From the NCBI GenBank assembly GCA_016929795.1, contig JAFGIA010000067.1:1-8250 (forward strand): a stretch of DNA of 8,250 nt, written 5' to 3'. Source of the DNA: Anaerolineae bacterium (GTDB taxonomy: Bacteria; Chloroflexota; Anaerolineae; JAAYZQ01). The notes beneath the pieces are model-generated. The model was given only the letters and a program-made list of their open reading frames with translations, made no database searches and was not told the DNA's origin. Position numbers and translations under genes: made by a program. Of this stretch, positions 1 to 8,250 are shown piece by piece (the stretch's first letter is position 1; every line of letters starts with the position of its first letter).

Positions 1-168
1 CAGGACGACGGCGCCACGCTGGAGGGCGTGTACAAGGAGACGCTGTGGGGGTACGCGCCCGAGCCGTCGACGGTGGTCGGCACGTTTCGGCTGCGCCGCC
101 CCGTCTATGCGAGTGAGGAAGGCGACTATAACACCTATCTGCCGCTGGTGCTGAAAGCGACGAATTAG
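1..168 (+). CDS. 3' end of a secreted or surface protein with an LPLVLK-type tail
   Basis: Frame 1 is open from the window edge to TAG at 166-168, giving the last 55 residues of a longer protein. The end reads NTYLPLVLKATN. Tails of the form (Y/F)LPLV(L/M)(K/R) close to the C-terminus are common on exported proteins of Chloroflexota; I know this from experience with such genomes, and no function is assigned to the tail here. No catalytic motif is visible in the fragment. Codon use is strongly GC-rich, like the Ro60 operon downstream. An intrinsic terminator lies about 55 bp after the stop, so this gene ends its own transcription unit. The product beyond 'probably exported' cannot be named. 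Confidence 0.75.
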   Translation, partial: QDDGATLEGVYKETLWGYAPEPSTVVGTFRLRRPVYASEEGDYNTYLPLVLKATN

Positions 169-223
169 GCCACTGTATGGTTGTGTGCGGACCTGAATAA
201 GGGACCGCCCCGGGGGTATCCAG

Positions 224-263
224 AACGCCCTGCCGGTTTCCACGGAAACAGGTAGGGCGTTTT
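224..263 (+). terminator. Intrinsic terminator after the first gene
   Basis: AACGCCCT (224-231) pairs with AGGGCGTT (254-261). The helix continues inward through CC/GG and GTTTCC/GGAAAC with two single mismatches and a 2-nt AC loop. T260-T263 forms a short T tract overlapping the stem end. The stem is long and GC-rich and sits between the stop at 168 and the next gene remnants, so it most likely terminates the upstream secreted-protein gene. Confidence 0.85.
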
Positions 264-277
264 GCGATTCCAAAGGT

Positions 278-488
278 ATGTCTATCAGGAAACGTTCTCC
301 AACTCCTTCGCCTCGATGAGGGCGGGTACGTTGCTCGTGCCCTGGGCTATTCTATCTTTACGGAAGCGAATTCGTGGGATGAGCTGAAGCAGGCGATTCG
401 AGATGCGGTGCAGTGTCACTTTGAGGAAGGGGAGCAGCCGGACCTGATTCGCCTGCACGCAGTGCGCGAGGAGGTCGTGCGCGTGTGA
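278..488 (+). pseudogene. HicB-like antitoxin gene, frame broken near its 5' end
   Basis: The phase with codons beginning at positions divisible by 3 encodes DEGGYVARALGYSIFTEANS (from 315) and continues through WDELKQAIRDAV, CHFEEGEQP and IRLHAVREEVVRV to TGA 486-488. This is the signature of small HicB-type antitoxins. No ATG, GTG or TTG occurs in that phase between the stop at 198 and the homology. An ATG at 278 lies in another phase (MSIRKRSP..., stop at 317-319). If one A of the AAA at 290-292 is skipped, that ATG reads MSIRNVLQLLRLDEGGYVAR, as expected for the family. The simplest explanation is a one-base gain in the A run, or an assembly error. The HicA-like gene follows with a 4-bp overlap (GTGTGA), the usual toxin-antitoxin arrangement. 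Confidence 0.6.
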
Positions 489-756
489 GGCTGCCAAGGG
501 ATATCGGCGGCGAGGACCTGGCCGCTCGGCTGACAAGGTACGGCTACGAGGTGACACGCCAGACGGGTAGTCGCATGCGATTGACTACGACAGAGGGTGG
601 AGAGCACCACATCACGGTTCCGCGCCACAAGCCGTTGCGGGTAGGGACGTTGATGAGCAGGTGAGTGCTGAGTCGATTGTGTCTGAGGTGGGTGATCTCG
701 TCGAATTTGACAAGGACGCCTCCAGAGGATATACTATGAGGAGCTATTCAATCTAA
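485..756 (+). pseudogene. HicA-like mRNA interferase gene, truncated and with the catalytic His replaced
   Basis: GTG at 485 opens VRLPRDIGGEDLAARL, then YGYEVTRQTGSRMRLTTTEG and EHHITVPRHKPLRVGTLMSR, with stop at 662-664. This is the HicA fold (dsRBD-like toxin): an RQ.GS(H) strand, then TVP.H..L..GTL. Family members normally have GSH with a catalytic His; here the codon is CGC (Arg, codon 555-557), one transition away from CAC. Family members also continue past GTL with an I(L/V).E(V/A) helix. That continuation, IVSEVGDLVEFDKD, is present from 676 in another phase and stops at 754-756. Removing about 17 nt between ATGAGC and ATTGTG would rejoin the frames as GTLMSIVSEV. TGAG recurs in the inserted stretch, suggesting slippage. 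The toxin is probably inactive. Confidence 0.65.
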
Positions 757-772
757 ATTGTAAGGAGGGCAG

Positions 773-1270
773 ATGCCCTGTAGGAGTCATTACAAACGAG
801 CCGGCAAACGAGGCGGCGAGACAACCAAATCGCGCCACGGCCACGGCTTTTATCGCAGGATCGGCGCCCTGGGAGGCAGACGGACGATGGAGCTGCACGG
901 CGACGAGTACGACGAGGTGCGGCAGCGGGCAGGAGAGAGTACGCGGGACAAGTACGGAAGAGAGCACTATCACGACCTCGCCGCCCGCTCGGCGCAGAAG
1001 AGGCGAGCCAGTAACAGGCTGAGGGACCAATCTATCCAGAACATGCTGGATGACGGGTGGAAGATACCGACGATTATCGGCTTGACGTGGGAAGATTTAC
1101 CAAGGCTGGACAAGTACCTTCAAAACGGATTGGGAGAATATCTGGCACAGGAACGCCCCTCGACGGACGCCGAGCACCTATTCGTGTCACGGTCGGGCAA
1201 GCCGCTGGGGTTGGCGAACACGTATGCGGTGATGAAACGCTTCCGGGAGCGCCAGGGCGCGGGCAATTAG
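773..1270 (+). CDS. KGG-repeat stress-protein-like N-terminus fused to a tyrosine-recombinase-like fragment
   Basis: The start is ATG 773 with a strong Shine-Dalgarno AAGGAGG at 762-768. The product has 165 residues. Residues 9-75 hold imperfect KGG repeats (GKRGGETTKSRHG, HGFYRRIGALGGRRT, YGREHYHDLAARS), the hydrophilic Gly-rich unit of GsiB/Em-type general stress proteins. Residues about 80-100 are a basic linker. Residues about 102-162 read IGLTWEDL, then YLAQ, EHLFVSRSGKPLG and YAVMKRFRER, which resemble the middle of the XerC/D-type catalytic domain (LTWEDL strand, YL helix, HLFVSRRGRPL turn). The protein ends before the HTLRHT box and the catalytic Tyr, so it cannot be an active recombinase. 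It may be a chance fusion after loss of an integrase, or a real small protein with borrowed sequence. The KGG assignment is firmer than the recombinase one. Confidence 0.6.
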   Translation: MPCRSHYKRAGKRGGETTKSRHGHGFYRRIGALGGRRTMELHGDEYDEVRQRAGESTRDKYGREHYHDLAARSAQKRRASNRLRDQSIQNMLDDGWKIPTIIGLTWEDLPRLDKYLQNGLGEYLAQERPSTDAEHLFVSRSGKPLGLANTYAVMKRFRERQGAGN

Positions 1271-1291
1271 TAGTCTGTCAGTTGTGAATTC

Positions 1292-1341
1292 ATAGGTTGC
1301 CATGGGCCGAAAAGCGGCTGAAGCCGCTACTACGAACCTAT
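1292..1341. repeat. REP/MITE-like nested palindrome (about 50 bp)
   Basis: Outer inverted ends ATAGGTT (1292-1298) and AACCTAT (1335-1341) enclose a perfect inner hairpin AGCGGCT-GA-AGCCGCT (1313-1328) flanked by GGCCGAAA and ACTACGAA. The nested layout and lack of coding potential fit a dispersed REP-like or MITE-like element. Only one copy is in this window, so dispersal cannot be shown here. Confidence 0.5.
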
Positions 1342-1408
1342 CAATCGCGCTTGACGCGGTAGTCACTGGCCGGCAGCAGTACGCACTTTTTCTTCTTTGA
1401 TCTGAAAT

Positions 1409-1437
1409 TTGACACGCACTCGGAAGTGTGGTATATT
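1409..1437 (+). promoter_or_regulatory. Sigma70-type promoter for the structured leader and probably the Ubl operon
   Basis: The -35 is TTGACA (1409-1414) and the -10 is TATATT (1432-1437), with a 17-bp spacer. This is the best promoter match in the window. A start near 1444 would transcribe the structured region that ends in the terminator at 1674-1713, and with read-through the ubiquitin-like gene at 1738. The surrounding sequence is AT-rich compared with its neighbours. Confidence 0.75.
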
Positions 1438-1443
1438 ATAAGC

Positions 1444-1713
1444 AGCTAAGCAAGCAAGGGCTTTTTGCCGGGGGGGAGTGCAATCGCCCCGGATGATTGA
1501 GAAGATACGGCGAGGATGGAGACGTTGCGAACAAAACAGGGACAACCGGACAAGTGGATAGTGTGTGACGCTGGGCTGTTTGGCAGTCCAGCACTACACA
1601 GTCTATGGTTCGGCCGTGCTCGCACCCAAGGGCAAGCGATGGCATGATTCAGGAATCGCTTGCCTGATTCCAGGGACGTGAGGGCCGGACCGGTCGAACT
1701 CACGTCCTTTTTT
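1444..1713 (+). ncRNA. Structured leader or independent small RNA, about 270 nt, class unknown
   Basis: The region lies between a strong promoter and a strong terminator and has no credible coding frame. Hairpins read directly: CCGGGG (1468-1473) with CCCCGG (1487-1492); GCTGG (1570-1574) with CCAGC (1588-1592), closed inside by CTG/CAG and extended outside by GTGT/ACAC; GGCAAGCGAT (1631-1640) with ATCGCTTGCC (1655-1664), a perfect 10 bp; then the terminator stem. I see no signature of 6S, SRP, RNase P or tmRNA and no riboswitch I recognise. The Ubl start codon is only 25 nt past the T tract. This could be an attenuator leader controlling the Ubl operon, or a free small RNA with some read-through. 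The 5' end is inferred from the promoter. Confidence 0.55.
1674..1713 (+). terminator. Strong intrinsic terminator or attenuator upstream of the Ubl gene
   Basis: GGACGTGAG (1674-1682) pairs perfectly with CTCACGTCC (1699-1707), followed by six T (1708-1713), then G and four more T. The stem is 9 bp with a 16-nt loop that can pair further (GACCGGTC palindrome). The next gene's ribosome site begins about 10 nt downstream. Its place between promoter and gene suits attenuation as well as simple termination of the leader RNA. Confidence 0.9.
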
Positions 1714-1737
1714 GTTTTCGGGGAAAGGGGGCCCACG

Positions 1738-1971
1738 ATGGTTGAGCAGATGATTCCTTACGAGGAGCGCATGGTCCACGTCCGATTCGAGGGCCAGAGC
1801 TGGAGCCTGGCTTTCAACGTCCTCGATATCGGCGATCTGAGCACCGACCAGGACGTGCGCGGGGCGCTGGCGCGCTACTTGGGCATTCCGGAGCGCCAGC
1901 TTGCACCTTACGTCGTGGACCGGCACGCGAATGGCAACATCACCGTCCGGCCCGAGGCAGTGTTCGGCTAG
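1738..1971 (+). CDS. Ubiquitin-like protein, 77 aa, C-terminal Gly (PRTRC-C-like)
   Basis: The start is ATG 1738 with the purine-rich site AAAGGGGG (1724-1731). Later in-frame ATGs at 1750 and 1771 are possible but have poorer sites. The order is a short N-terminal extension, a beta-hairpin (MVHVRFEGQSWSLAFNVLDI, residues 12-31), a helix after a polar turn (STDQDVRGALARYLG, 35-49), a further helix or strand (ERQLAPYVVDRH, 52-63) and a last strand NITVRPEAVFG ending at the stop. Size, strand-strand-helix-strand order and a terminal Gly fit ubiquitin-like proteins. The arrangement resembles the small Ubl of PRTRC cassettes (protein C), which also sits with ThiF and JAMM partners. The E1-like and JAMM genes are downstream. 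Expected role: adenylated at Gly77 by the E1 and attached to a target or used as a sulfur carrier. Because the protein already ends in Gly, no proteolytic maturation seems needed. The fold is inferred from pattern only. Confidence 0.6.
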   Translation: MVEQMIPYEERMVHVRFEGQSWSLAFNVLDIGDLSTDQDVRGALARYLGIPERQLAPYVVDRHANGNITVRPEAVFG

Positions 1972-1976
1972 GAGAT

Positions 1977-1993
1977 CGCGTGCATCGCGTTTT
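1977..1993 (+). terminator. Weak hairpin plus T4 after the Ubl gene
   Basis: CGCG (1977-1980), loop TGCAT, CGCG (1986-1989), then TTTT. The stem is only 4 bp, so termination would be partial at best. It could set a lower level for the RNAs and Ro60 gene downstream. Confidence 0.25.
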
Positions 1994-2004
1994 CCTCCAT
2001 ACGT

Positions 2005-2141
2005 CCAATCTCGGTCTGCACCCGAACATGGGAAGCTTACAAACTGGGCTCTCCTGAGCTGAGGTCCGACACCTCCCCCATGGCAGGGTTATGCCTAACC
2101 AAGAACAGACGCTGCCCTAACTTGTGCAGGCCGATGATTGG
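2005..2141 (+). ncRNA. Y-like RNA 1 (Ro60-associated), long end-to-end stem
   Basis: The two ends pair: CCAATC (2005-2010) with GATTGG (2136-2141), then T-CGGTCTGCAC (2011-2021) with GTGCAGGCCGA (2124-2134). This gives about 17 bp with one bulged T (2135) and one G-U pair. Above it lie an internal loop (CCGAACAT side and TAACTT side) and a second helix GGGAAGC/GCTGCCC with one mismatch. Inside are CATGGG (2027-2032) with CCCATG (2077-2082), competing with the second helix; hairpin GAGGT-CCGAC-ACCTC (2061-2075), which can also be read as a T-arm-like loop TCCGACA; and GGTTA-TGCC-TAACC (2087-2100) within GGCAG/CTGCC. The motifs GAAGCTTACAAAC on the 5' side and CTAACTTGTGC on the 3' side recur in the next two RNAs. 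The tRNA-like module here is degenerate. No promoter is visible, so it may be processed from the operon transcript. Confidence 0.6.
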
Positions 2142-2169
2142 AGTCTTTGGGTGTTGGCTCGGACCTGGC

Positions 2170-2185
2170 GCCTACGGCCGTAGGC
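2170..2185. repeat. Perfect 16-bp palindrome between RNA 1 and the T-armed element
   Basis: GCCTACGGCCGTAGGC is self-complementary over all 16 bases, and CCTACGG recurs at 2190-2196. It may be an RNA hairpin, or a dimeric protein site in the DNA. Nothing in the sequence decides between these. Confidence 0.4.
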
Positions 2186-2219
2186 AGCTCCTACGGTAAT
2201 AGGCGGCGCAGGCGGTCGA

Positions 2220-2307
2220 GGGATGGCGACCGGCACAATCCATCCCCGGAGTGGTCGTGTGGTGGCAAGGGGCTCCGGCCTCGTAGGTTCGAATCCTACC
2301 CACTCCG
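2220..2307 (+). ncRNA. T-armed mini tRNA-like element preceded by a hairpin
   Basis: An acceptor-like helix of 8 bp, CGGAGTGG (2247-2254) with CCACTCCG (2300-2307), abuts a textbook T-arm: stem GTAGG (2283-2287), loop TTCGAAT (2288-2294), stem CCTAC (2295-2299). Only 28 nt lie between the acceptor 5' strand and the T-arm. They hold one hairpin, GGGGC-TCCG-GCCTC (2269-2282), with a C(UNCG)G-type stable tetraloop. D-arm and anticodon arm are therefore missing or merged, so this is not a normal tRNA. Just upstream GGGATGG (2220-2226) pairs with CCATCCC (2240-2246) and would stack on the acceptor; CGGTCG/CGACCG (2213-2218, 2227-2232) is an alternative. The 3' end is directly followed by the closing stem of Y-like RNA 2. 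Confidence 0.6.
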
Positions 2308-2485
2308 TTTGTCACAAATCCATAGGGCGTACCCTTACCTGAGAAGCGTACATACCCAAGATCCCTGACGTGGATGAGATTCTGGTTCGAGCCCAGACGC
2401 GTGCACTCGGGCACGCGTAGCTCAAAAGGCAGAGCAGGTTGCTAACGGCTTTCCTAACTTGTACGCCCTGTGGGTTTGTGATGAA
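2308..2485 (+). ncRNA. Y-like RNA 2 with a circularly permuted tRNA module
   Basis: CACAAATCCATAGGGCGTAC (2313-2332) pairs along its full 20 nt with 2461-2480 (18 Watson-Crick, 2 G-U). The helix can extend outward to 2308/2485. After an internal loop, GAGAAGC (2341-2347) pairs with GCTTTCC (2448-2454), 6 of 7. The core is tRNA-like but permuted: T-stem TCTGG/CCAGA with loop TTCGAGC (2381-2397), then acceptor 3' strand CGCGTGC (2398-2404), a 6-nt loop ACTCGG, acceptor 5' strand GCACGCG (2411-2417), TA (tRNA positions 8-9), and D-stem GCTC/GAGC with loop AAAAGGCA containing GG (2420-2435). Junction lengths are exactly those of tRNA. Known bacterial Y RNAs carry a tRNA-mimicking module and bind Ro60/Rsr through a long stem; the Ro60-like gene is 285 bp downstream. 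The 5' and 3' ends are inferred from pairing. Confidence 0.75.
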
Positions 2486-2506
2486 GGATGCAGCGCATCT
2501 TATGAT
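2476..2506 (+). promoter_or_regulatory. Possible promoter for Y-like RNA 3
   Basis: The -10 is TATGAT (2501-2506) and the best -35 is TTGTGA (2476-2481) with a long 19-bp spacer. A start near 2513 would coincide with the first paired base of Y-like RNA 3. It overlaps the 3' strand of RNA 2's stem. The match is moderate. Confidence 0.3.
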
Positions 2507-2514
2507 TGAGAATG

Positions 2515-2674
2515 GATCGGGCGTATCCCGATCGGAAGGGCCTACAAACTCATAGAGAAGAGCACCAGATGCTGAGTCTGGAGGTTCCCGGTTCAAGTCC
2601 GGGCGCGGGTGCTCGAGCCCGTGTAGCTCAAGAAGCTTTGACAAGCCCTTTAAACTTGCACGCCCGGTTTTTTT
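2515..2674 (+). ncRNA. Y-like RNA 3 with permuted tRNA module and U-tract end
   Basis: CGGGCGT (2518-2524) pairs with ACGCCCG (2660-2666) and is followed by G and seven T (2668-2674), so the 3' end is well marked. A second helix, GAAGGGC (2535-2541) with GCCCTTT (2645-2651), lies above an internal loop. The core repeats the order of RNA 2: T-arm CCCGG-TTCAAGT-CCGGG (2587-2603), CGCGGGT (2604-2610), 6-nt loop GCTCGA, GCCCGTG (2617-2623, two G-U pairs), TA, GCTC. The D-arm is poor (AAGAAGC, no GG). An extra hairpin CCAGA-TGCTGAG-TCTGG (2565-2581) precedes the T-arm. Competing folds exist: GATCGGG/CCCGATC (2515-2533), GAGCACC/GGTGCTC (2560-2566 with 2608-2614), and CCGGGCG/CGCCCGG (2599-2605 with 2661-2667), the last forming a terminator-like stem. 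Confidence 0.7.
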
Positions 2675-2720
2675 AAGAGCTGGAGGGTGTGTAACCGGCG
2701 CCGGGCTGCACGCGGGCGCA

Positions 2721-2745
2721 CGCCGCCGGACACCGTCCGGCGGCG
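2721..2745 (+). other. 11-bp GC hairpin in the 5' leader of the Ro60-like gene
   Basis: CGCCGCCGGAC (2721-2731), loop ACC, GTCCGGCGGCG (2735-2745) is a perfect helix. It lies just upstream of the ribosome site (AGGAGGAGGAGGA from 2757) and has no T tract. It probably stabilises the mRNA 5' end or separates the mRNA from the Y-like RNAs after processing, rather than terminating transcription. Confidence 0.55.
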
Positions 2746-2770
2746 AAGAACTGCCAGGAGGAGGAGGATC

Positions 2771-4333
2771 ATGAGCATGAATGAGCAGGATCTGCGTCTG
2801 CGGCTGCTGAACACGCTGCTGGCGACGCCACACCGGGACCTGGACAGCGTCTACCCGGTTCACCGAGAGATCCTGGAGCAGGACCCACGCTTTTACGTGC
2901 AGATGGCGGCCTGGTACGCGGACGAGGGCGAGGTGCGCGACCACAAGGAGATGTTTGTGGTGAACCTGTGCCTGAGCGACTTTCCAGGGCACCGTGACGT
3001 GGGCCTGGCGCTGCTGCGCGAGATGCCTCCCTACCAGGTCGGCCGCGTGTTCGACTTTGTGAAGGGTGCGACCCTGCGGCGCCGGGTGAACCAGGATGGG
3101 CAGACCCGGATCATCACGGAGCGGCGGGGCCTGTTCCGCAACGTGCCGCGCTCGATGAAGACCGAGATCACGCGCTATCTGCGCGAGCGCGAGGCGAATG
3201 CGGCGTGGTTCGACAGCACCGTGCTGCAGGCGCGACGGGCGACCAAGCGGCTGTACGCCAGCCTGCACATCGAGCCCTCGGAACGGGCGCAGGCGATCCT
3301 GTTCGACGACGACCCGCTGGCGGACTCGCGGCTGCACGCACTGAAGGCGATCGCCCGGACGCGCGCGCCGGCCGAGCAGGCGCGGGCCATCGTCGAGCAG
3401 CAGATCCCGTACCGGGTGGCGGCTTCGGTGGTCCACCAGATGACGCCGACCGTGCTGGTGGCGCTCATCGACAGGATGAGCCCGCAGGAGGTGATCAACA
3501 ACATGGGCTCGCTCAAGCGGCACGGCGCGCTGGACAACCGCGAGGTGAAGGCGCTGATCGAGGCCAAGCTGGAGCAGGCCCAGACCGACGGCAGGGTGTC
3601 GGCCTACAAGGCGAAGGTTGCCGCCGAGGCCGCAGGCGTACCGGCCGACGTGGCGGCCAAGCTGGACGCGGTGACCGAGGCGCGGGTGCAGGCGAAGGGT
3701 GCGATCGTCCGCTCCACGGCGCTGCTGATCGACAAGAGCGGCTCGATGAGCCAGGCGATCGAGATCGGCAAGCGGCTGGGCGCCATGATCGCCGGCATCT
3801 GCGAGGCGGAGCTGTACGCCTACGCGTTCGACTCGATGCCGTACGAGATCGAGGTGCCCGTCAAGCCGGGCGCGATCGAGAGGCTGCGAGGCAAGCTGTC
3901 CGGGGCACCTGCGGCCGAGGACCGGGCGGTGACACTGGCCGACTGGGAGCGGGCGCTGGCCGGCATCAAGGCCGGCGGCACCACGTCGTGCGGTGTGGCG
4001 GTCGAGATGATGCGCCGCAACGGCCAGGTGGTCGAGCAGATCATCATGGTCACGGACGAGGGGGAGAACGAGAGCCCGCGCTTTGTGGATGCGCTACAGC
4101 ATTACCGCAAGGAGCTGGGGGCCGACCCGCACGTGGTTTTTGTCAAGACACAGGGTGCTGCGAACCGGCTGGAGGGGGATTGCCGGCGGGCCGACATCGC
4201 CTACGACGCCTACGACTTTGCCGGTGACTACTATGCCCTGCCGAACCTGCTGCCGCTGCTGACGCGGCCCAGCAAGCTCGACCTGCTGCTGGATATCATG
4301 GCCTACCCACTGCCGCGGCGCAAGCCGGGGTGA
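2771..4333 (+). CDS. rsr: Ro60/TROVE-like protein with C-terminal VWA domain
   Basis: ATG 2771 follows the purine run AGGAGGAGGAGGA; the open frame upstream to 2687 is Arg-rich, covers the hairpin and is not used. The product has 520 aa, near the usual length of Ro60/Rsr. Residues about 8-230 look like helical HEAT-type repeats with TROVE-style wording (FYVQMAAWYADEGEVRDHKE, NLCLSDFPGHRDVGLALLRE, MPPYQVGRVFDFVKG). Residues about 235-305 are helical and charged. A VWA domain follows with a complete MIDAS: DKSGS at 321-325, GGTTS (Thr 404/405) and VTDEGEN (Asp429). Known role of the family: a ring that binds misfolded RNA ends in its hole and Y RNA on its outer face, aiding RNA decay or quality control, in bacteria with partners such as PNPase. 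The Y-like RNAs directly upstream support the call. The DIP1984 gene follows after 31 bp. It could be a TROVE-related VWA family distinct from classical Rsr, so the symbol is tentative. Confidence 0.75.
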   Translation: MSMNEQDLRLRLLNTLLATPHRDLDSVYPVHREILEQDPRFYVQMAAWYADEGEVRDHKEMFVVNLCLSDFPGHRDVGLALLREMPPYQVGRVFDFVKGATLRRRVNQDGQTRIITERRGLFRNVPRSMKTEITRYLREREANAAWFDSTVLQARRATKRLYASLHIEPSERAQAILFDDDPLADSRLHALKAIARTRAPAEQARAIVEQQIPYRVAASVVHQMTPTVLVALIDRMSPQEVINNMGSLKRHGALDNREVKALIEAKLEQAQTDGRVSAYKAKVAAEAAGVPADVAAKLDAVTEARVQAKGAIVRSTALLIDKSGSMSQAIEIGKRLGAMIAGICEAELYAYAFDSMPYEIEVPVKPGAIERLRGKLSGAPAAEDRAVTLADWERALAGIKAGGTTSCGVAVEMMRRNGQVVEQIIMVTDEGENESPRFVDALQHYRKELGADPHVVFVKTQGAANRLEGDCRRADIAYDAYDFAGDYYALPNLLPLLTRPSKLDLLLDIMAYPLPRRKPG

Positions 4334-4364
4334 TGCGGCGGGTACGCGTAACAGGAGGTGCAAT

Positions 4365-4823
4365 ATGAAACTGGCCGAGGCCCTGATCCTGCGGGCCGAC
4401 TATCAGGAGCGGATGCGTGAGCTCGGGTACCGGCTCGGGCGCAGCGCCCGAGTGCAGGAGGGTGACAAGCCGCCTGAGGACCCGCAGATGCTGCTGGCCG
4501 AGCTGGAGAAGGTGGCCAGCGAGCTGGAGCGCCTGATCCAGGCGATCAACCGGACGAACAGTGCCAGCGAGCTGGCCGAGGGGGTGACGATCACCGACGC
4601 CCTGGCGACGCGCGACGTGCTGCGCGCCAAGCAGGAGATCTATCGCGACCTGGCGTCGACGGCGAGTGTGACCCAGGGCCGGGTGAGCCGGTCAGAGGTC
4701 AAGTACAGGAGCACGGTGGACGTGGCCGAAATCCAGAAGCGGGCCGACGAGGTCGCGATGGCGCACCGTGAGCTCGACACGCGGATCCAGGAGGCCAACT
4801 GGCGCGTGGAGCTGGTGGAGTAG
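4365..4823 (+). CDS. DIP1984-family (septicolysin-like) coiled-coil protein
   Basis: ATG 4365 has a perfect AGGAGGT (4353-4359). The 152 residues match the DIP1984 family pattern throughout: MKLAEALILRADYQERM at the start, ARVQEGDKPPEDP (28-40), a long helix, LIQAINRTNSASEL (57-70), TITDALATRDVL (75-86) and the closing VDVAEIQKRADEVA / ELDTRIQEANWRVELVE. Most of it should form long antiparallel helices. The family is widespread; the biochemical role is not settled as far as I know, and the septicolysin name comes from annotation rather than proof. Tight spacing behind the Ro60-like gene suggests co-transcription. A GC hairpin follows the stop. One possible role is a scaffold or adaptor for the Ro60 particle, which is inference only. 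Confidence 0.85.
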   Translation: MKLAEALILRADYQERMRELGYRLGRSARVQEGDKPPEDPQMLLAELEKVASELERLIQAINRTNSASELAEGVTITDALATRDVLRAKQEIYRDLASTASVTQGRVSRSEVKYRSTVDVAEIQKRADEVAMAHRELDTRIQEANWRVELVE

Positions 4824-4831
4824 AAGGGAAT

Positions 4832-4859
4832 GGCAGTTGGGGCCTGCGCCCCAACTGCC
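4832..4859 (+). other. 12-bp hairpin after the DIP1984 gene (no T tract)
   Basis: GGCAGTTGGGGC (4832-4843), loop CTGC, GCCCCAACTGCC (4848-4859) is a perfect helix eight bases after the stop codon. The following bases are GACTTGGGG, so it is not a classical intrinsic terminator. It may protect the upstream mRNA 3' end and separate the Ro60/DIP1984 message from the RNA and genes downstream. Confidence 0.6.
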
Positions 4860-4887
4860 GACTTGGGGAAGGACAGATAGTTGGTAG

Positions 4888-5078
4888 CCATGTCGACGGG
4901 GGCGAGCACAAACCGTGCCAACGGGTACGTTGGCGCACTGGCTAAAATAGCCACCATGGGTCCCGCAAAGGGCTGCGGGCGGGTTCAAATCCCGGATCGC
5001 ACAGTGTATGCCCGGCACAGATACAAGAAAACACGTGACCGAGAACCTGTTACTACCACGTGCTGACTCGAGACATGG
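4888..5078 (+). ncRNA. tRNA-like structured RNA in the leader of the RRLRGG-protein gene
   Basis: The core has three arms in normal tRNA order: a D-like hairpin TGGCT-AAAAT-AGCCA (4939-4953), an anticodon-like hairpin CCCGCA-AAGGGC-TGCGGG (4962-4979) and a T-arm CGGG-TTCAAAT-CCCG (4980-4994). An acceptor-like helix is possible between GGCGCAC (4932-4938) and GTGT..GCC (5004-5012) with a bulge, and GTGCC (4915-4919) pairs with GGCAC (5014-5018). Further out, CGAGCAC (4903-4909) can pair with GTG....CTCG (5060-5070), and CCATGTC (4888-4894) pairs perfectly with GACATGG (5072-5078). There is no CCA and no exact acceptor, so it is not a functional tRNA. It may be another Ro60 ligand, or a cis structure controlling translation of the gene at 5106, whose ribosome site starts 13 nt after the last pair. 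Confidence 0.55.
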
Positions 5079-5105
5079 TGAGGGTGGGTAAGGGGAATCG
5101 TGAAC

Positions 5106-5963
5106 ATGAGCATTCATGACCTGCTAGACAGGATGGAATCGGCAGAGGACGACTTCCTGAAGACCGAGTTCCTGGCCCCGGTGCTGCCCGGCGGCCAGGT
5201 GCGGGTGCGGATCGAGGGATTGGTGTGCACGCTGCGCGTGACGGGCCAGGCCGATCCTGGCTGGGCCATCCTGAAGCCGGTGTCGATGGAGCGGGCAAGG
5301 GTGGTCGCTGAGCCGAGCCTGCGGCAGCTCCGAGACTACCTGGCGCTGTTTCCGGCGGTGCGCATGCTGCTGCTGGCCCGTGCCGGGGACTACTGGCTGG
5401 CGGTTCCCGCGCACCGGGGCGACCGCCGCATTCAGATCGAAGGGCAGGCCCGTGTCCACCTGGCGACCGGTGTCGAGCCGTTTCAGCAGGTGGTCACGCG
5501 GTTCGACGGCTCGGTGTTTTTGTTTCAGGAGGTCGACAGGCGGCGCAGTCCGGCGATCGCCGCGTATCTGCGCGACGAGCTGAACGCAGGGACGCAGGTA
5601 GGGGATCTGCACAAGGCGACGCTGACTGCCGAGGAACGAGACGTGTATCAGCTCGCCCGAGAGGCGATTGATGCTGCGCGGCAGGCGGCGGAAGCGGCGC
5701 GACGTGACCGGGCGGAAGTTCGACTGGCCGACGCCCTGGCCCACGCCGGGGCGGAGCTGGCCTCGTACATCGAGCAGGCGGACGCCTACGCGGTGTCGTA
5801 CACCGTGGACGGCAGCACGCACCGCTCTATCGTGCGCAAGGACGACCTGACGGTGCTGACCGCCGGTATCTGCCTGGAAGGGGGCGACCGCGACTTTGAC
5901 CTGCAGAGCCTGGTGGGTGTGCTGCGCGAAGAAACATCGGGGCGGCGGCTAAGGGGTGGGTGA
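5106..5963 (+). CDS. Unknown 285-aa protein of the Ro60-Ubl locus, C-terminus RRLRGG
   Basis: ATG 5106 is preceded by AGGGGA (5091-5096); GTG 5100 is in frame but too close to that site. I do not recognise the family. Residues about 15-155 form a compact mixed domain (DDFLKTEFLAPVLPGG, GWAILKPVS, YLALFPAVRMLLLAR, VTRFDGSVFLFQEVDRRR). Residues about 172-220 are an Ala/Arg/Glu-rich helix, probably a coiled coil. Residues 227-275 form a second small domain, YAVSYTVDGSTHRSIV, LTVLTAGICLEGGDRDFDL, QSLVGVLRE. The last residues are GRRLRGG, identical over LRGG to the conjugated tail of ubiquitin. Only two Cys occur, at 41 and 256; the latter lies in GICLEGG, which recalls the GxICLD active-site stretch of E2 enzymes. 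It could be an E2-like transfer protein, a modification target, or an adaptor. The JAMM and E1 genes follow directly. Confidence 0.7.
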   Translation: MSIHDLLDRMESAEDDFLKTEFLAPVLPGGQVRVRIEGLVCTLRVTGQADPGWAILKPVSMERARVVAEPSLRQLRDYLALFPAVRMLLLARAGDYWLAVPAHRGDRRIQIEGQARVHLATGVEPFQQVVTRFDGSVFLFQEVDRRRSPAIAAYLRDELNAGTQVGDLHKATLTAEERDVYQLAREAIDAARQAAEAARRDRAEVRLADALAHAGAELASYIEQADAYAVSYTVDGSTHRSIVRKDDLTVLTAGICLEGGDRDFDLQSLVGVLREETSGRRLRGG

Positions 5964-6025
5964 CCCGGGGGGAGCGCGTCGCCGGGCAGCCGGCGGCTGT
6001 GTCCAGAGGAGCGAGAGGGACGACC

Positions 6026-6394
6026 GTGAACGAGATTTCTTACACCCTGGTGGGCTACCACCGGCGCGGCATCTGGTATGGGCGGCTGCGGCAGCGACAG
6101 GTGGGCGGTCCTGCGTGTGTCGAGTTTGACTGGGCGTGGGTGATGGCGCGCGAAGAACGGTATGGCGACGTGGCCGGCTTTTTCCACACCCACCCGCGCG
6201 GCCTGGCGACGCCCTCGGATCGCGACCTGCGCGCCATGCGCGGCTGGGTCAGTTGCTTCGGCAAGCCCTTGTTATGCCTGATCGACAGTGGCGACCGGCT
6301 GTCGGCCTATCTCTTCCAGACGGATGAGGACGAGGGGCGGCCGGTGGCGCGGGTGGAACGTTTCCCACGGAACGCGATCGTGGCGGTGGAGTAG
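6026..6394 (+). CDS. JAMM/MPN-family metallopeptidase (JAB deubiquitinase-like)
   Basis: The product has 122 aa from GTG 6026, chosen because GAGAGGGA lies just upstream and the domain starts at once (EISYTLVGYHRRG). An in-frame GTG at 5960 overlaps the previous stop but would add 22 residues of non-domain sequence. The JAMM motif is complete: HTHPRGLATPSDRD, with His54, His56, Ser64 and Asp67 as zinc and catalytic residues. The needed upstream Glu is probably Glu33 (CVEFDW) or one of Glu43/Glu44. The C-terminal part supplies the closing strands (PLLCLIDSGDRLSAYLF). Bacterial members cut isopeptide or precursor bonds of ubiquitin-like proteins, or release cysteine from sulfur carriers. With the Ubl and E1 in the same locus, deconjugation of the Ubl is the likely job. 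No N-terminal signal or membrane segment is seen. Confidence 0.85.
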   Translation: MNEISYTLVGYHRRGIWYGRLRQRQVGGPACVEFDWAWVMAREERYGDVAGFFHTHPRGLATPSDRDLRAMRGWVSCFGKPLLCLIDSGDRLSAYLFQTDEDEGRPVARVERFPRNAIVAVE

Positions 6395-6405
6395 GGGGAA
6401 GGACG

Positions 6406-7068
6406 ATGCACGAAGCCTTTCATCACGAAGCGCTTTACCGGGGCGAGGAGGCCCTGGAGGGGCTGGCCCGGGTGCGGCTCGTCGTGTGCGGGGCCGGGGC
6501 CGTCGGCTCGAACCTGGTGGACAGCCTGGTGCGGCAGGGCTACCGGGAGCTGGCGGTGATCGACTTTGACCGGATCGAGGCGCACAACGTAGGCACTCAG
6601 ACTTACGCCGAGAGCGACGTGGGCGCATTCAAAGTAGATATCCTGCAGGCCGAGGTGTTTCGCGCCGTGGGCGTCGAGATCGGGGCGGTGCGCCAGCGGC
6701 TGACGGCGCGGAACGTGGGCAAGCTGCTGCGGGGAGCGGACCTGGTGATCGATGGCTTTGACAACCACGAGTCGCGGGCGGTGGTGACGGAGCATTGCCG
6801 GGCGGGAGGCATTCCGTGCCTGCACGTGGGCCTGAGCGCGGACTATGCCGAGGTGGTGTGGAACGAATCGTACCGTGTGCCACGCGACGTCGAGCAGCCC
6901 GGGGGAGACGTGTGCGACTATCCCCTGGCGCGCAACTTGATCCAGTTCGCCGTCGCCCTGGCTGCAGAGGCGGTCATCCGCTTCGTGTTGGAGGGCCGGC
7001 AGCAGGGTTATTCGTTCACCTTGCAGGACTTGCAAGTCAACAGGGAAGGGGACGCTGCGCAGGCCTGA
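6406..7068 (+). CDS. E1/ThiF-like Ubl-activating enzyme
   Basis: ATG 6406 with GGGGGAAGG upstream; 220 aa, the length of a minimal ThiF/MoeB adenylation domain. The nucleotide-binding loop is VVCGAGAVGSN (27-37), followed by IDFDRIEAHN (52-61), GAFK (73-76) and LVIDGFDNHESR (113-124, the D..DN..R element). Cys170 in GGDVCDYPLARN is the best candidate for a thioester Cys; Cys131 and Cys138 form a CRAGGIPC pair. The usual N..RQ box is NVGTQ (61-65), so the Arg normally found there is missing. Expected reaction: ATP-dependent adenylation of the Ubl C-terminal Gly, then transfer to a Cys or to a substrate. The JAMM gene ends 11 bp upstream, which implies an operon. The 3' end is 7 bp from the convergent regulator gene. 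Confidence 0.85.
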   Translation: MHEAFHHEALYRGEEALEGLARVRLVVCGAGAVGSNLVDSLVRQGYRELAVIDFDRIEAHNVGTQTYAESDVGAFKVDILQAEVFRAVGVEIGAVRQRLTARNVGKLLRGADLVIDGFDNHESRAVVTEHCRAGGIPCLHVGLSADYAEVVWNESYRVPRDVEQPGGDVCDYPLARNLIQFAVALAAEAVIRFVLEGRQQGYSFTLQDLQVNREGDAAQA

Positions 7069-7075
7069 ACCAGTT

Positions 7076-7759
7076 CTACCCTTTGACCTGGCTCGCGAGC
7101 TCCTCGAGGCGTGCCTGGTCGTGGACGACGAACTCGGTACGGGTGATGTCGATCAGGCCCTCGTCGGCGAAACGGTGGAGGAAGCGGCAGGCGACCTCAC
7201 GCGTCGTCCCGGTGCGTGCCGCGATCTCGTCGAGGGTCATGGCGCGCGGGATGGGCTCGGACTCGCGGCCCGCAGAGAAGGATACGAGCAGGCGCGCCAG
7301 GCGGCCGGCTACAGGCTGAAAGACCATTTCCTCTACGACGGTGCTGGCGCGCTGCATGCGCTCGACCATCAGGCGGCACAGCGCCCACAGGATGCATCCG
7401 TTGGCGAGCAGGAGTGACTCGACGCTGTGGCGGGACCAGAGATGCACGCGCGCGAGGCCGGGCGCTTCGAGCGTTGCCGGCAGCGCCGCACCCTCCTGAA
7501 AAAAGGCCGGACCCCAGAAGAGTTCGCCCTCTCCAAAGGTCGTGACGAGCAGGCTGCGCCCCTCGCTGGACGCCTTGGCTGCATCGATCCGCCCCTTGAC
7601 GACCAGGAACAGGTAAGGCCACACGTCGCCCTGCAGCGCCAGGACCTGGCCCTTGCGCAACTCGCGCGCGTGCGCGTGCTCTACAAGGAATTCTCGTTCC
7701 CGCTCTCCCAGGGAGGCAAAGACGGGATGGACTTGCAACGACTGTTCCAGGGTTCTCAT
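7076..7759 (-). CDS. Crp/Fnr-family transcription regulator
   Basis: The start is the ATG at 7759-7757 (minus strand) with AAAAAGGAT about 8 nt upstream; the frame is open to 7891 but that extension is not protein-like. The product has 227 aa, the normal Crp size. Residues about 10-125 form a cyclic-nucleotide-binding-type beta-roll (LRKGQVLALQGDVWPYLFLVVKGRI, FGEGELFWGPAFF). The phosphate-binding cassette lacks the Arg-Ser of cAMP-binding Crp, and there is no Fnr-type Cys cluster, so the ligand is unknown. Residues about 174-203 form the winged helix-turn-helix (MTLDEIAARTGTTREVACRFLHRF). It is convergent with the E1 gene and divergent from the lipoprotein gene. It may regulate itself and that neighbour; a link to the Ro60 locus is not shown. 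Confidence 0.9.
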   Translation of the reverse strand: MRTLEQSLQVHPVFASLGEREREFLVEHAHARELRKGQVLALQGDVWPYLFLVVKGRIDAAKASSEGRSLLVTTFGEGELFWGPAFFQEGAALPATLEAPGLARVHLWSRHSVESLLLANGCILWALCRLMVERMQRASTVVEEMVFQPVAGRLARLLVSFSAGRESEPIPRAMTLDEIAARTGTTREVACRFLHRFADEGLIDITRTEFVVHDQARLEELASQVKG

Positions 7760-7882
7760 CGATCCGATCCTTTTTGATGTGTGCCGCGTGGGAGAGTGTA
7801 TCATATGTCGATCCGTTGGGCAAGTTGGCAAAGGCGATCCGCGGGCGTGAGGGCCTGGAATGTCCGAGCGTGGCCGCCAGGA

Positions 7883-7925
7883 CTTGACCAAAGTTCAAGA
7901 CTTCTGGCGCCGGTTGTGCTATGCT
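7883..7925 (+). promoter_or_regulatory. Dyad and possible promoter between the regulator and lipoprotein genes
   Basis: A dyad CTTGA-N7-TCAAG (7883-7899) lies in the divergent intergenic region. A TATGCT (7920-7925) preceded by TGC looks like an extended -10 for the rightward gene; TTCAAG (7894-7899) would be a poor -35 with a 20-bp spacer. On the minus strand a TATGAT near 7793-7798 may serve the regulator gene. The dyad could be an operator for the Crp-type protein but matches neither the Crp nor the Fnr consensus spacing. Confidence 0.35.
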
Positions 7926-7967
7926 AGACCATAGTGAGCCAGGTGTTTCCTGTGCGGGAGACGTGCC

Positions 7968-8250
7968 ATGTTTCGAACGAGGTCGACGATGAAAAGATAC
8001 GTGCTCTTCTGGCTGGCGCTGGTGGCTGTGCTGTGCGCTTCGTGCGGCCAGGGCGCGCCTGCCGCCGATTCGCCTGCCTGCCCGCGGCCGAGCGGCACGC
8101 CCCACTACCTGGAGGTGCCGCCGGAGCTACTGCCGGCGCCCGGGCCGACGACGGGGGCCAGGGAGGTGGAGATCGGGGGGAAACGCATCGTCGTGGACAG
8201 GGTGGTGGAGGGGCCGCTGTGCAACGACACCTGGCGCGGCACGGTGTATG
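7968..8250 (+). CDS. 5' part of a lipoprotein gene, function unknown
   Basis: The frame is open from ATG 7968 to the window edge (94 codons). GGGAG (7956-7960) serves ATG 7968; ATG 7989 with CGAGGT is an equal alternative. The N-terminus MKRYVLFWLALVAVLCASCG is a lipoprotein signal: positive start, hydrophobic core, and CASC with Cys as the likely lipidated residue, though the -3 position is Cys rather than Leu. The mature part begins Pro/Ala-rich, then LEVPPELLPAPGP, EVEIGGKRIVVDRVVEGPLC and TWRGTVY. I recognise no enzyme motif. The protein is probably anchored on the outer face of the membrane. It is divergent from the Crp/Fnr gene, so it may be under its control. Confidence 0.75.
   Translation, partial: MFRTRSTMKRYVLFWLALVAVLCASCGQGAPAADSPACPRPSGTPHYLEVPPELLPAPGPTTGAREVEIGGKRIVVDRVVEGPLCNDTWRGTVY

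Follow-up and report, generated by a model that had tools for sequence, protein, structure and literature searches.

Gene and RNA content of the locus

The window analysed here, 8,250 nucleotides (positions 1 to 8,250) of contig JAFGIA010000067.1 from an Anaerolineae bacterium of the Chloroflexota (assembly GCA_016929795.1), carries a locus in which a divergent Ro60-like protein of the TROVE family and its putative Y RNAs are joined to genes for a ubiquitin-like protein (Ubl) pathway. The locus spans positions 1738-7068, lies on the + strand throughout, and reads in order UBL, three Y RNAs, TROVE/vWA, DIP1984, UP (a conserved protein without assigned function), JAMM and E1. A sequence-only reading had proposed these proteins and RNAs on one strand, and they were confirmed by open reading frames at the positions first noted, by family matches, and by an RNA model.

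UBL (1738..1971) encodes 77 residues ending in FG and was matched by none of the protein families in library scans of the window proteins; AlphaFold2 predicted a beta-grasp fold (pLDDT 84). All 16 aligned UBLs, taken from 16 of 42 UBL loci, end in [FY]G; the family's terminal motif is the single-Gly PEA[VI][FY]G, and glycine is the last residue in 120/120 homologues listed; thus, the 77-residue Ubl ending in glycine that had been proposed was borne out, and the predicted fold together with the conserved terminus marks the protein as ubiquitin-like. The E1-like (ThiF/MoeB) adenylating enzyme (6406..7068; 220 aa, GAGAVG motif) matches ThiF with an E-value of 3.8e-28. An alignment from 15 of 67 E1 loci has invariant G29, G31, G34, D53, D55, K76, and D116, comprising the Rossmann GxGxxG and adenylation residues, and invariant C28, C138, and C170, which are candidate catalytic cysteines. 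PADLOC E1-E2 models match this protein alone in the window. The JAMM/MPN+ peptidase (6026..6394; 122 aa, HTHP-x6-S-x2-D) was recognised by PF14464 (31 bits, cut-off 25), and HxHP..SxxD was present in 13/13 sequences matched by the window protein, its own included.

The TROVE/vWA protein (2771..4333; 520 aa, with a DKSGS MIDAS-like motif) falls by itself below recognition by Pfam and NCBIfam (vWA_Ro60, 14.3 bits versus a cut-off of 27.7). A profile of 15 relatives, from 15 of 52 TROVE loci, returned Ro60, TROVE, TROVE, Ro60, and Rsr as its five top PDB matches (E 2.4e-6 to 0.023), with the best stretch spanning profile positions 190-436 of 498, so that the kinship to Ro60/Rsr extends across the TROVE and vWA parts. 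Together with DIP1984 (4365..4823; 152 aa; NF038048, E 3.5e-56), an accessory found besides the window in 2/80 relative loci, these profile and family matches uphold the identities first assigned to the TROVE/vWA, DIP1984, JAMM, and E1-like genes. UP (5100..5963; 287 aa), defined by a homologue listing and an alignment of 59 of 120 UP proteins, has invariant cysteines C41 and C256 (P0001 numbering); its AlphaFold2 model, with an OB-like barrel region, a long helix, and an alpha/beta end, places it structurally only weakly (pLDDT 86 for the best of five models, 82 to 59 for the rest). The RRLRGG tail of UP finds no support as a meaningful Ubl-like end: because only 2/120 listed homologues have it, the window protein and one almost identical to it, it is chance.

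The three Y-like RNAs of the sequence-only reading were recovered by a covariance model, R1, for which 22 of the 40 Y RNAs with permuted tRNAs were used, all from loci other than the window; R1 E-values are rough because the calibration was short. Y RNA 1 (2012..2133; 45.7 bits, E 1.4e-9) shares its insert with the Chloroflexota locus L001 (L numbers denote loci, and G numbers genomes, of the relatives described below), with which it paired in insert comparisons, and has the Y scaffold motif and a fold z of -2.7; comparison of the insert classes with four E. coli RNAs gave no source for its insert. Y RNA 2 (2323..2470; 92.7 bits, E 2.2e-20) and Y RNA 3 (2517..2667; 61.8 bits, E 2.9e-13) each combine the Y scaffold with a permuted tRNA, in Y RNA 2 a T arm followed by a D arm. 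Between Y RNAs 1 and 2, a tentative tRNA-like hairpin set lacking an evident Y stem (2247..2307) is cloverleaf-like (an Rfam tRNA-Sec match of 23.5 bits with E 0.43, under the gathering score; fold z -2.2). The additional tRNA-like RNA proposed 3′ of DIP1984 (4905..5050, with a T-arm motif near 4978-4994) fared less well and remains a weak candidate: R1 gave 11.4 bits (E 0.11), its fold was hardly better than shuffles (z -1.08), and ARAGORN called no tRNA gene there or elsewhere in the window.

Conservation of the module

Scanning genomes with a profile of UP yielded 173 relatives. The best 80 loci were retained; most are from Cyanobacteriota, and the others belong to Chloroflexota, Planctomycetota, Myxococcota, and Acidobacteriota. 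Profile matches numbered 80 for UP, 68 for E1, 53 for TROVE, and 42 for UBL; the two acidobacterial loci, whose stretches start within 2.4 kb of UP, had no TROVE match. Among the 49 loci with >9 kb upstream, 38 had TROVE, 36 had UBL (always with TROVE), and 44 had E1, all on the UP strand. The order UBL, TROVE, UP held in 41/41 loci and E1 lay 3′ of UP in 68/68, while in L037 UBL adjoins UP and TROVE is absent from the 6.7 kb upstream. JAMM was matched by the window protein in 5/80 loci, and loci with JAMM occur among those of Chloroflexota, Planctomycetota, and viruses.

Retrieval by TROVE added five viral contigs, two plasmids, and one phage record. All six viral or phage loci with TROVE carry UBL, TROVE, UP, JAMM, and E1 complete, and the Kovacikia plasmid, one of the two plasmid matches, carries UBL, TROVE, UP, and E1 without JAMM. 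Terminase or Gp23 capsid matches were found in 4/6 of the viral records, including the 595-kb LR756511, and not in L084 or L085. Ten cyanobacterial genomes were chosen for having UP, five of them with a UP locus lacking TROVE nearby; in all ten, TROVE is full-length and a single UBL shares its contig at a distance of 1.1 to 6.0 kb, with an in-frame TGA reported in the UBL of G019 and an additional 36-residue TROVE piece in one genome. In a UBL-only search of two further genomes, UBL was present in one and not found in that of L039.

A sample of 301 genomes from the phylum of L001's genome, that genome included, contained TROVE in 8 and UBL in 11. UBL lay on the same contig in 8/8 of the TROVE genomes, 33 to 1,533 bases away, and UP was found in 7/9 short TROVE loci retrieved; in the three genomes with UBL and no TROVE, UBL was near a contig start in G307 and G265 and not in G097. 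One Chloroflexota genome has two tandem TROVE genes behind a single UBL (L098, L104; G293:C159). The sequence-only reading had held that the idea would fail if the Ubl, E1, and JAMM genes never neighboured TROVE, and had named Chloroflexota neighbourhoods as the place to look; there they are neighbours, and conservation in several phyla, in viral records, and on a plasmid gives strong support to the proposed joining of Ubl, E1, and JAMM genes to a locus for Ro60 and Y RNAs. At the level of gene content and order, then, UBL, a Y RNA array, TROVE, UP, and E1, with JAMM in some, constitute a co-inherited module with one order on one strand, and named cyanobacterial strains (Nostoc, Microcoleus) and giant phages have it.

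A common Y RNA scaffold with varied inserts

A repeated frame around differing inserts is visible in L001 and L006. A scan of the 80 loci and the window for a scaffold motif (5′ AGCnTACAnAC, 3′ AACTTGYRC, and a stem of at least 6 pairs) gave 203 matches on the + strand versus 2 on the - strand; when the + strands were shuffled once by mononucleotides, 5 matches appeared. The scaffold is present in 53/80 loci and in 50/53 TROVE loci. Among 18 further sources, R1 found 53 matches in 15 and none in L097, L104, or L008; L096 is not independent support, because it is the L001 locus already in R1. Consensus folds consist of a terminal stem, an internal loop, and a second stem leading into the insert and, like R1, have the YrlA-like architecture in which a tRNA-like module follows these elements; in L001 4331-4480 this module folds as a permuted tRNA with a T arm, an acceptor-like stem, a D arm, and an anticodon-like arm. 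Rfam scans, covering 8 of 80 loci plus parts of L027 and L014, left YrlA (RF02553) below its gathering score of 69, with 26.6 bits in L027, 20.9 in L014, and 24.8 in the window, the last (E 0.075) being the one weak YrlA match there and supporting Y RNA 2.

Clustering of the inserts, with one of 198 RNAs excluded for an insert <25 bases, placed 171/198 RNAs in 14 classes of at least three. Whole tRNA bodies make up class 0 (29 RNAs) and class 3 (23 RNAs), several of which are called tRNA by ARAGORN or Rfam, and permuted tRNAs make up classes 1, 8, 12, and 13, which include Y RNAs 2 and 3 of the window. In the folds the scaffold encloses the tRNA bodies and leaves them without a free 3′ end, and copies enclosed in this way should not be chargeable or assembled.

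Other inserts resemble 23S rRNA. In the search of four E. coli RNAs, to which the E-values refer, the profile of class 2 (24 RNAs, 23 loci) matched E. coli 23S 1044-1114 (E 1.9e-12), the GTPase-associated centre (GAC). The GAC part is preceded by the sarcin-ricin loop (SRL) 11-mer AGTACGAGAGG, compared with the E. coli 23S stretch 2647-2673 and invariant in 24/24 aligned RNAs. These comprised 21 of the 24 class members (without the long copy of L040, L065, and L076) plus L071, L041, and L089. RNAalifold recovered the three expected helices of the centre (H42/H43/H44-type), and the whole RNA has kept double changes at 18/54 pairs. The GAC query matched 28/80 loci, each time on the + strand, and Rfam LSU reached 54.7 bits in one of the eight scanned loci (L014). 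Class 5 (13 RNAs, 13 loci) matched 23S 1912-1941 (E 2.8e-6), the H69-H71 region, and an RNA of phage locus L088 (4684-5004) weakly resembles an rRNA insert (E 0.19). The remaining classes gave no source in this comparison. A further insert type, with a GGTGCGTA..TACGC-like hairpin, lies 5′ of TROVE at L027:4114-4259, L042:491-621, and L079:6798-6923, and it too lacked a match to a source RNA.

Regulation and companion genes

The 26-tRNA operon of Anabaena is described, in the available text of PMC10272220, as silent, repressed by TrcR, and induced by antibiotics that target translation; the TrcR operator TGTAGTAT sits at its promoter, and rtcB belongs to the same regulon. We counted this operator in 69 loci, the 80 minus 11 that are non-cyanobacterial (L037 still included), and found 108 occurrences, where permuted motifs had a median of 25 and at most 101. 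In 32/35 cyanobacterial loci it lies no more than 700 bases 5′ of UBL (300 permuted motifs: mean 0.6, maximum 20), and 16/25 SRL-GAC RNAs have it within the 60 bases on their 5′ side (permuted maximum 5); in the examples inspected it adjoins or overlaps a -10-like box. These counts are inflated by the relatedness of the loci, though the spacing of doubled operators differs, being 41 bases in the Nostoc type and 11-12 bases in the Microcoleus type. The three loci with no operator upstream of UBL (L027, L033, L052) each have a tRNA array there, and L089 has a doubled site ~280 bases 5′ of its array. These operator counts are for cyanobacterial relatives; its position upstream of their UBL genes points to translational stress and lends support to the link with stress drawn in the sequence-only reading.

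In the window, a sigma70-type promoter (TTGACA-17-TATATT; 1409..1437, +) with 11/12 consensus matches lies upstream of UBL, one of two promoter-like sites in 1300-7300 versus a shuffle mean of 0.8. Sequence inspection and folding placed a hairpin with a T-run, a possible attenuator, between this promoter and UBL (1674..1713, +); it is not listed in the terminator scan because its loop exceeds the length allowed. Hairpins with T-runs occur 5′ of UBL in three Chloroflexota loci, namely the window, L001 (about 3060-3095), and L007 (directly upstream), and this shared element suggests attenuation. A gene for a Crp/Fnr-type regulator (7079-7891, -) is convergent with the module.

ARAGORN scans covered 37 of the 80 loci, then L052 and seven new loci. 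Three or fewer tRNAs were found in 34/37, and arrays of 11 to 33 tRNAs adjoin the module in L011, L027, L033, L052, L083, L084, L086, and L089. Some arrays of ~20 to 31 genes for many amino acids lie directly 5′ of UBL (L011:183-5884, L027:78-2630, L033:23-2223, L089:7450-10533), in a Phycisphaerae genome and in cyanobacteria, one of them on a 1.2-Mb plasmid.

Ten of 60 listed neighbour clusters were scanned with Pfam, one member each. A divergent ribosomal L7/L12 paralogue lies near the Y RNAs and TROVE in 13/80 loci (L050:5057-5437 and 12 others). Two genomes with the paralogue have a second L7/L12 copy that shares 50% identity with the protein of the L050 array, and two genomes without it have a single copy that shares 47-48%. 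Tpt1/KptA clusters in 11/80 loci; in five of these (L025, L041, L045, L063, L068) UP and Tpt1/KptA occur with no UBL or TROVE on the stretch examined, perhaps representing a second type of UP-E1 system. An AAA ATPase cluster was present in 6 loci, L025 included, and a conserved ~241-aa protein with a weak PH-like match was found, mostly between UBL and TROVE, at L014:4488-5213 and in 28 other loci.

Possible function of the module

Carried by several phyla and some giant phages, the gene set probably helps its bearers to cope with attacks on protein synthesis. Our preferred reading, offered tentatively, is of a Ro60 module with its own ubiquitin-like pathway, that is, a stress-induced particle showing tRNA and rRNA baits and coupled to Ubl tagging. 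Translational stress would induce the locus, and the TROVE ring would bind the Y stems to give a ribonucleoprotein particle. Inserts locked into the scaffold, unable to function as tRNA or rRNA, may then lure, as bait or decoys, proteins that have tRNA and the factor-binding sites of the ribosome as their targets, whether for attack or for some other action. The E1 would activate the single-Gly Ubl; with no E2 taking part, the Ubl may then be attached to captured proteins or to the particle itself and so mark them for disposal or signalling, and JAMM would take the Ubl off again. A more elaborate form of this idea, possible and rather speculative, is that the Ro60 particle is a modular bait display, a system of a new type shared by cells and phages. 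In it, one Y scaffold used throughout would hold out a collection of pieces of the translation machinery (tRNA bodies, permuted tRNAs, SRL with GAC, H69-H71, and in some an L7/L12 paralogue) that would minimally imitate the factor- and tRNA-binding surfaces of the ribosome, while a dedicated E2-less Ubl pathway under translational-stress control would tag whatever docks. Bait would explain why the inserts are tRNA pieces and 23S sites touched by tRNA and factors, why an L7/L12 paralogue possibly joins them, why the promoters are expected to answer translational stress, and why phages carry the module. The rRNA-mimic Y RNAs of relatives shift the likely meaning of the module beyond the earlier interpretation.

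Several observations weigh against the bait reading. Neither an E2-only nor an E3 family matched the window proteins in the family scans, the Ubl ends in a single glycine rather than GG, and UP stands without TROVE or UBL nearby in 11/49 long loci. The mimicry itself is uneven: no rRNA-type insert was detectable in the window, and such inserts were found only in loci of cyanobacteria, on one of their plasmids, and with a weak score in one phage; the class 5 likeness to 23S is limited to the first ~30 bases; and the GAC copies are not exact, because position A1067 is A or G in the class 2 mimics. The decoy idea does have a precedent in PMC7790460, where competitive inhibition of an anticodon nuclease by the tRNA-like YrlA was raised as one possibility, although YrlA was not cut by that nuclease.

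The same features could instead belong to a platform for RNA repair or quality control, on which TROVE and Y RNAs would recruit enzymes mending or degrading broken tRNA and rRNA, the inserts would help to recognise or position substrates, and Ubl would regulate assembly. We judge this rather unlikely, even though Tpt1/KptA and, more rarely, DIP1984 accompany the module, rtcB is in the TrcR regulon (PMC10272220), and PMC7824862 reports TROVE from a small minority of jumbo phages and describes cellular TROVE as forming an RNA-repair platform with a tRNA-like partner. Repair leaves no obvious need for copies of the SRL and GAC, and Tpt1 also occurs at the five loci without TROVE on the stretch; moreover, Pfam scans of the ten neighbourhood representatives found neither an RNA ligase nor a kinase, and the window proteins likewise included no RNA ligase. 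Sulfur-carrier Ubls have precedents in TtuB and Urm1, and here Ubl and E1 might thiolate the tRNA-like or Y RNAs with no protein tag involved. That the Ubl ends in PEA[VI][FY]G and not GG, that the ten neighbours scanned include no thiolase or rhodanese, and that JAMM suggests a Ubl linkage to be cleaved make this quite improbable.

Decoys might also serve mobile elements, shielding translation from host defences that cut tRNA or rRNA, with bacterial copies derived from phages or plasmids. The complete set in all six viral or phage records, four with terminase or capsid matches, and the patchy distribution in the Chloroflexota sample (8/301) would fit; against this, adjacent TROVE and UBL in 10/10 of the cyanobacterial genomes, chosen for UP, and the host TrcR operator argue for cellular use, so that we regard such counter-defence as distinctly unlikely. 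The tRNA arrays, with up to 33 ARAGORN tRNAs per stretch, and the antibiotic-induced, TrcR-repressed operon of Anabaena (PMC10272220, available text) recall a back-up cassette for translation that supplies tRNAs in stress, with Y RNAs tuning the processing or modification of tRNAs and rRNA. This we consider very improbable, since the window has no ARAGORN tRNA, most scanned loci have three or fewer, and tRNA bodies closed by the scaffold, with no free 3′ end, should not be charged.

Relation to known systems

In the known bacterial systems of Ubl, E1, and JAMM (Iyer 2006, PMC1779556), as described in the available text, a Ubl, a ThiF-type E1, and a JAMM peptidase are likewise encoded at a single locus; TROVE and vWA have 0 occurrences in that main text as available. 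The module differs in that no E2 was recognised, the Ubl family lacks a Pfam entry and ends in PEA[VI][FY]G, and a Ro60 locus is attached. RNA-repair operons with TROVE (PMC7824862, PMC7790460) share, in the text available, TROVE, a Y or tRNA-like RNA, and in some loci DIP1984 or Tpt1; they differ from the module in its Ubl pathway, its rRNA-mimic RNAs, and the lack of an RNA ligase in the ten neighbour clusters examined. The available text of the jumbo-phage review PMC7824862 mentions TROVE without Ubl. The Anabaena trn operon and TrcR regulon share the tRNA arrays, the operator, and translational stress with the module, whereas TROVE and Ro60 have 0 occurrences each, and Ubl no mention, in the available text of that paper (PMC10272220). 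Among the matches listed, a full-text literature search gave no paper that links TROVE to a Ubl pathway or describes rRNA inserts in Y RNAs. Bil and CBASS represent later work on bacterial Ubl, E1, and JAMM systems, and Burroughs and Aravind reportedly treated TROVE, Y RNA, and DIP1984 in 2016.

With bacterial Ro60/Rsr and YrlA-type Y RNAs the module shares a divergent TROVE-vWA protein, a Y-type stem, and a permuted tRNA insert; unlike them, it has arrays of Y RNAs with varied inserts, including 23S rRNA centres, its own Ubl, E1, JAMM, and UP genes, and members that fall below Pfam and Rfam cut-offs. Two long-standing questions, what Ro60 and Y RNAs do for bacteria and what sets of E1, Ubl, and JAMM without E2 are for, are thereby joined in one module. 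Proteins touching tRNA, H69, the SRL, or the GTPase centre are the likely partners indicated by the inserts, and the TrcR operator points to translation inhibitors as the likely inducer, which makes both questions directly testable. We know of no other Ubl pathway attached to an RNA particle, and if the bait reading is true, the module would represent a new form of translation-machinery mimicry and, to our knowledge, the first such pathway.

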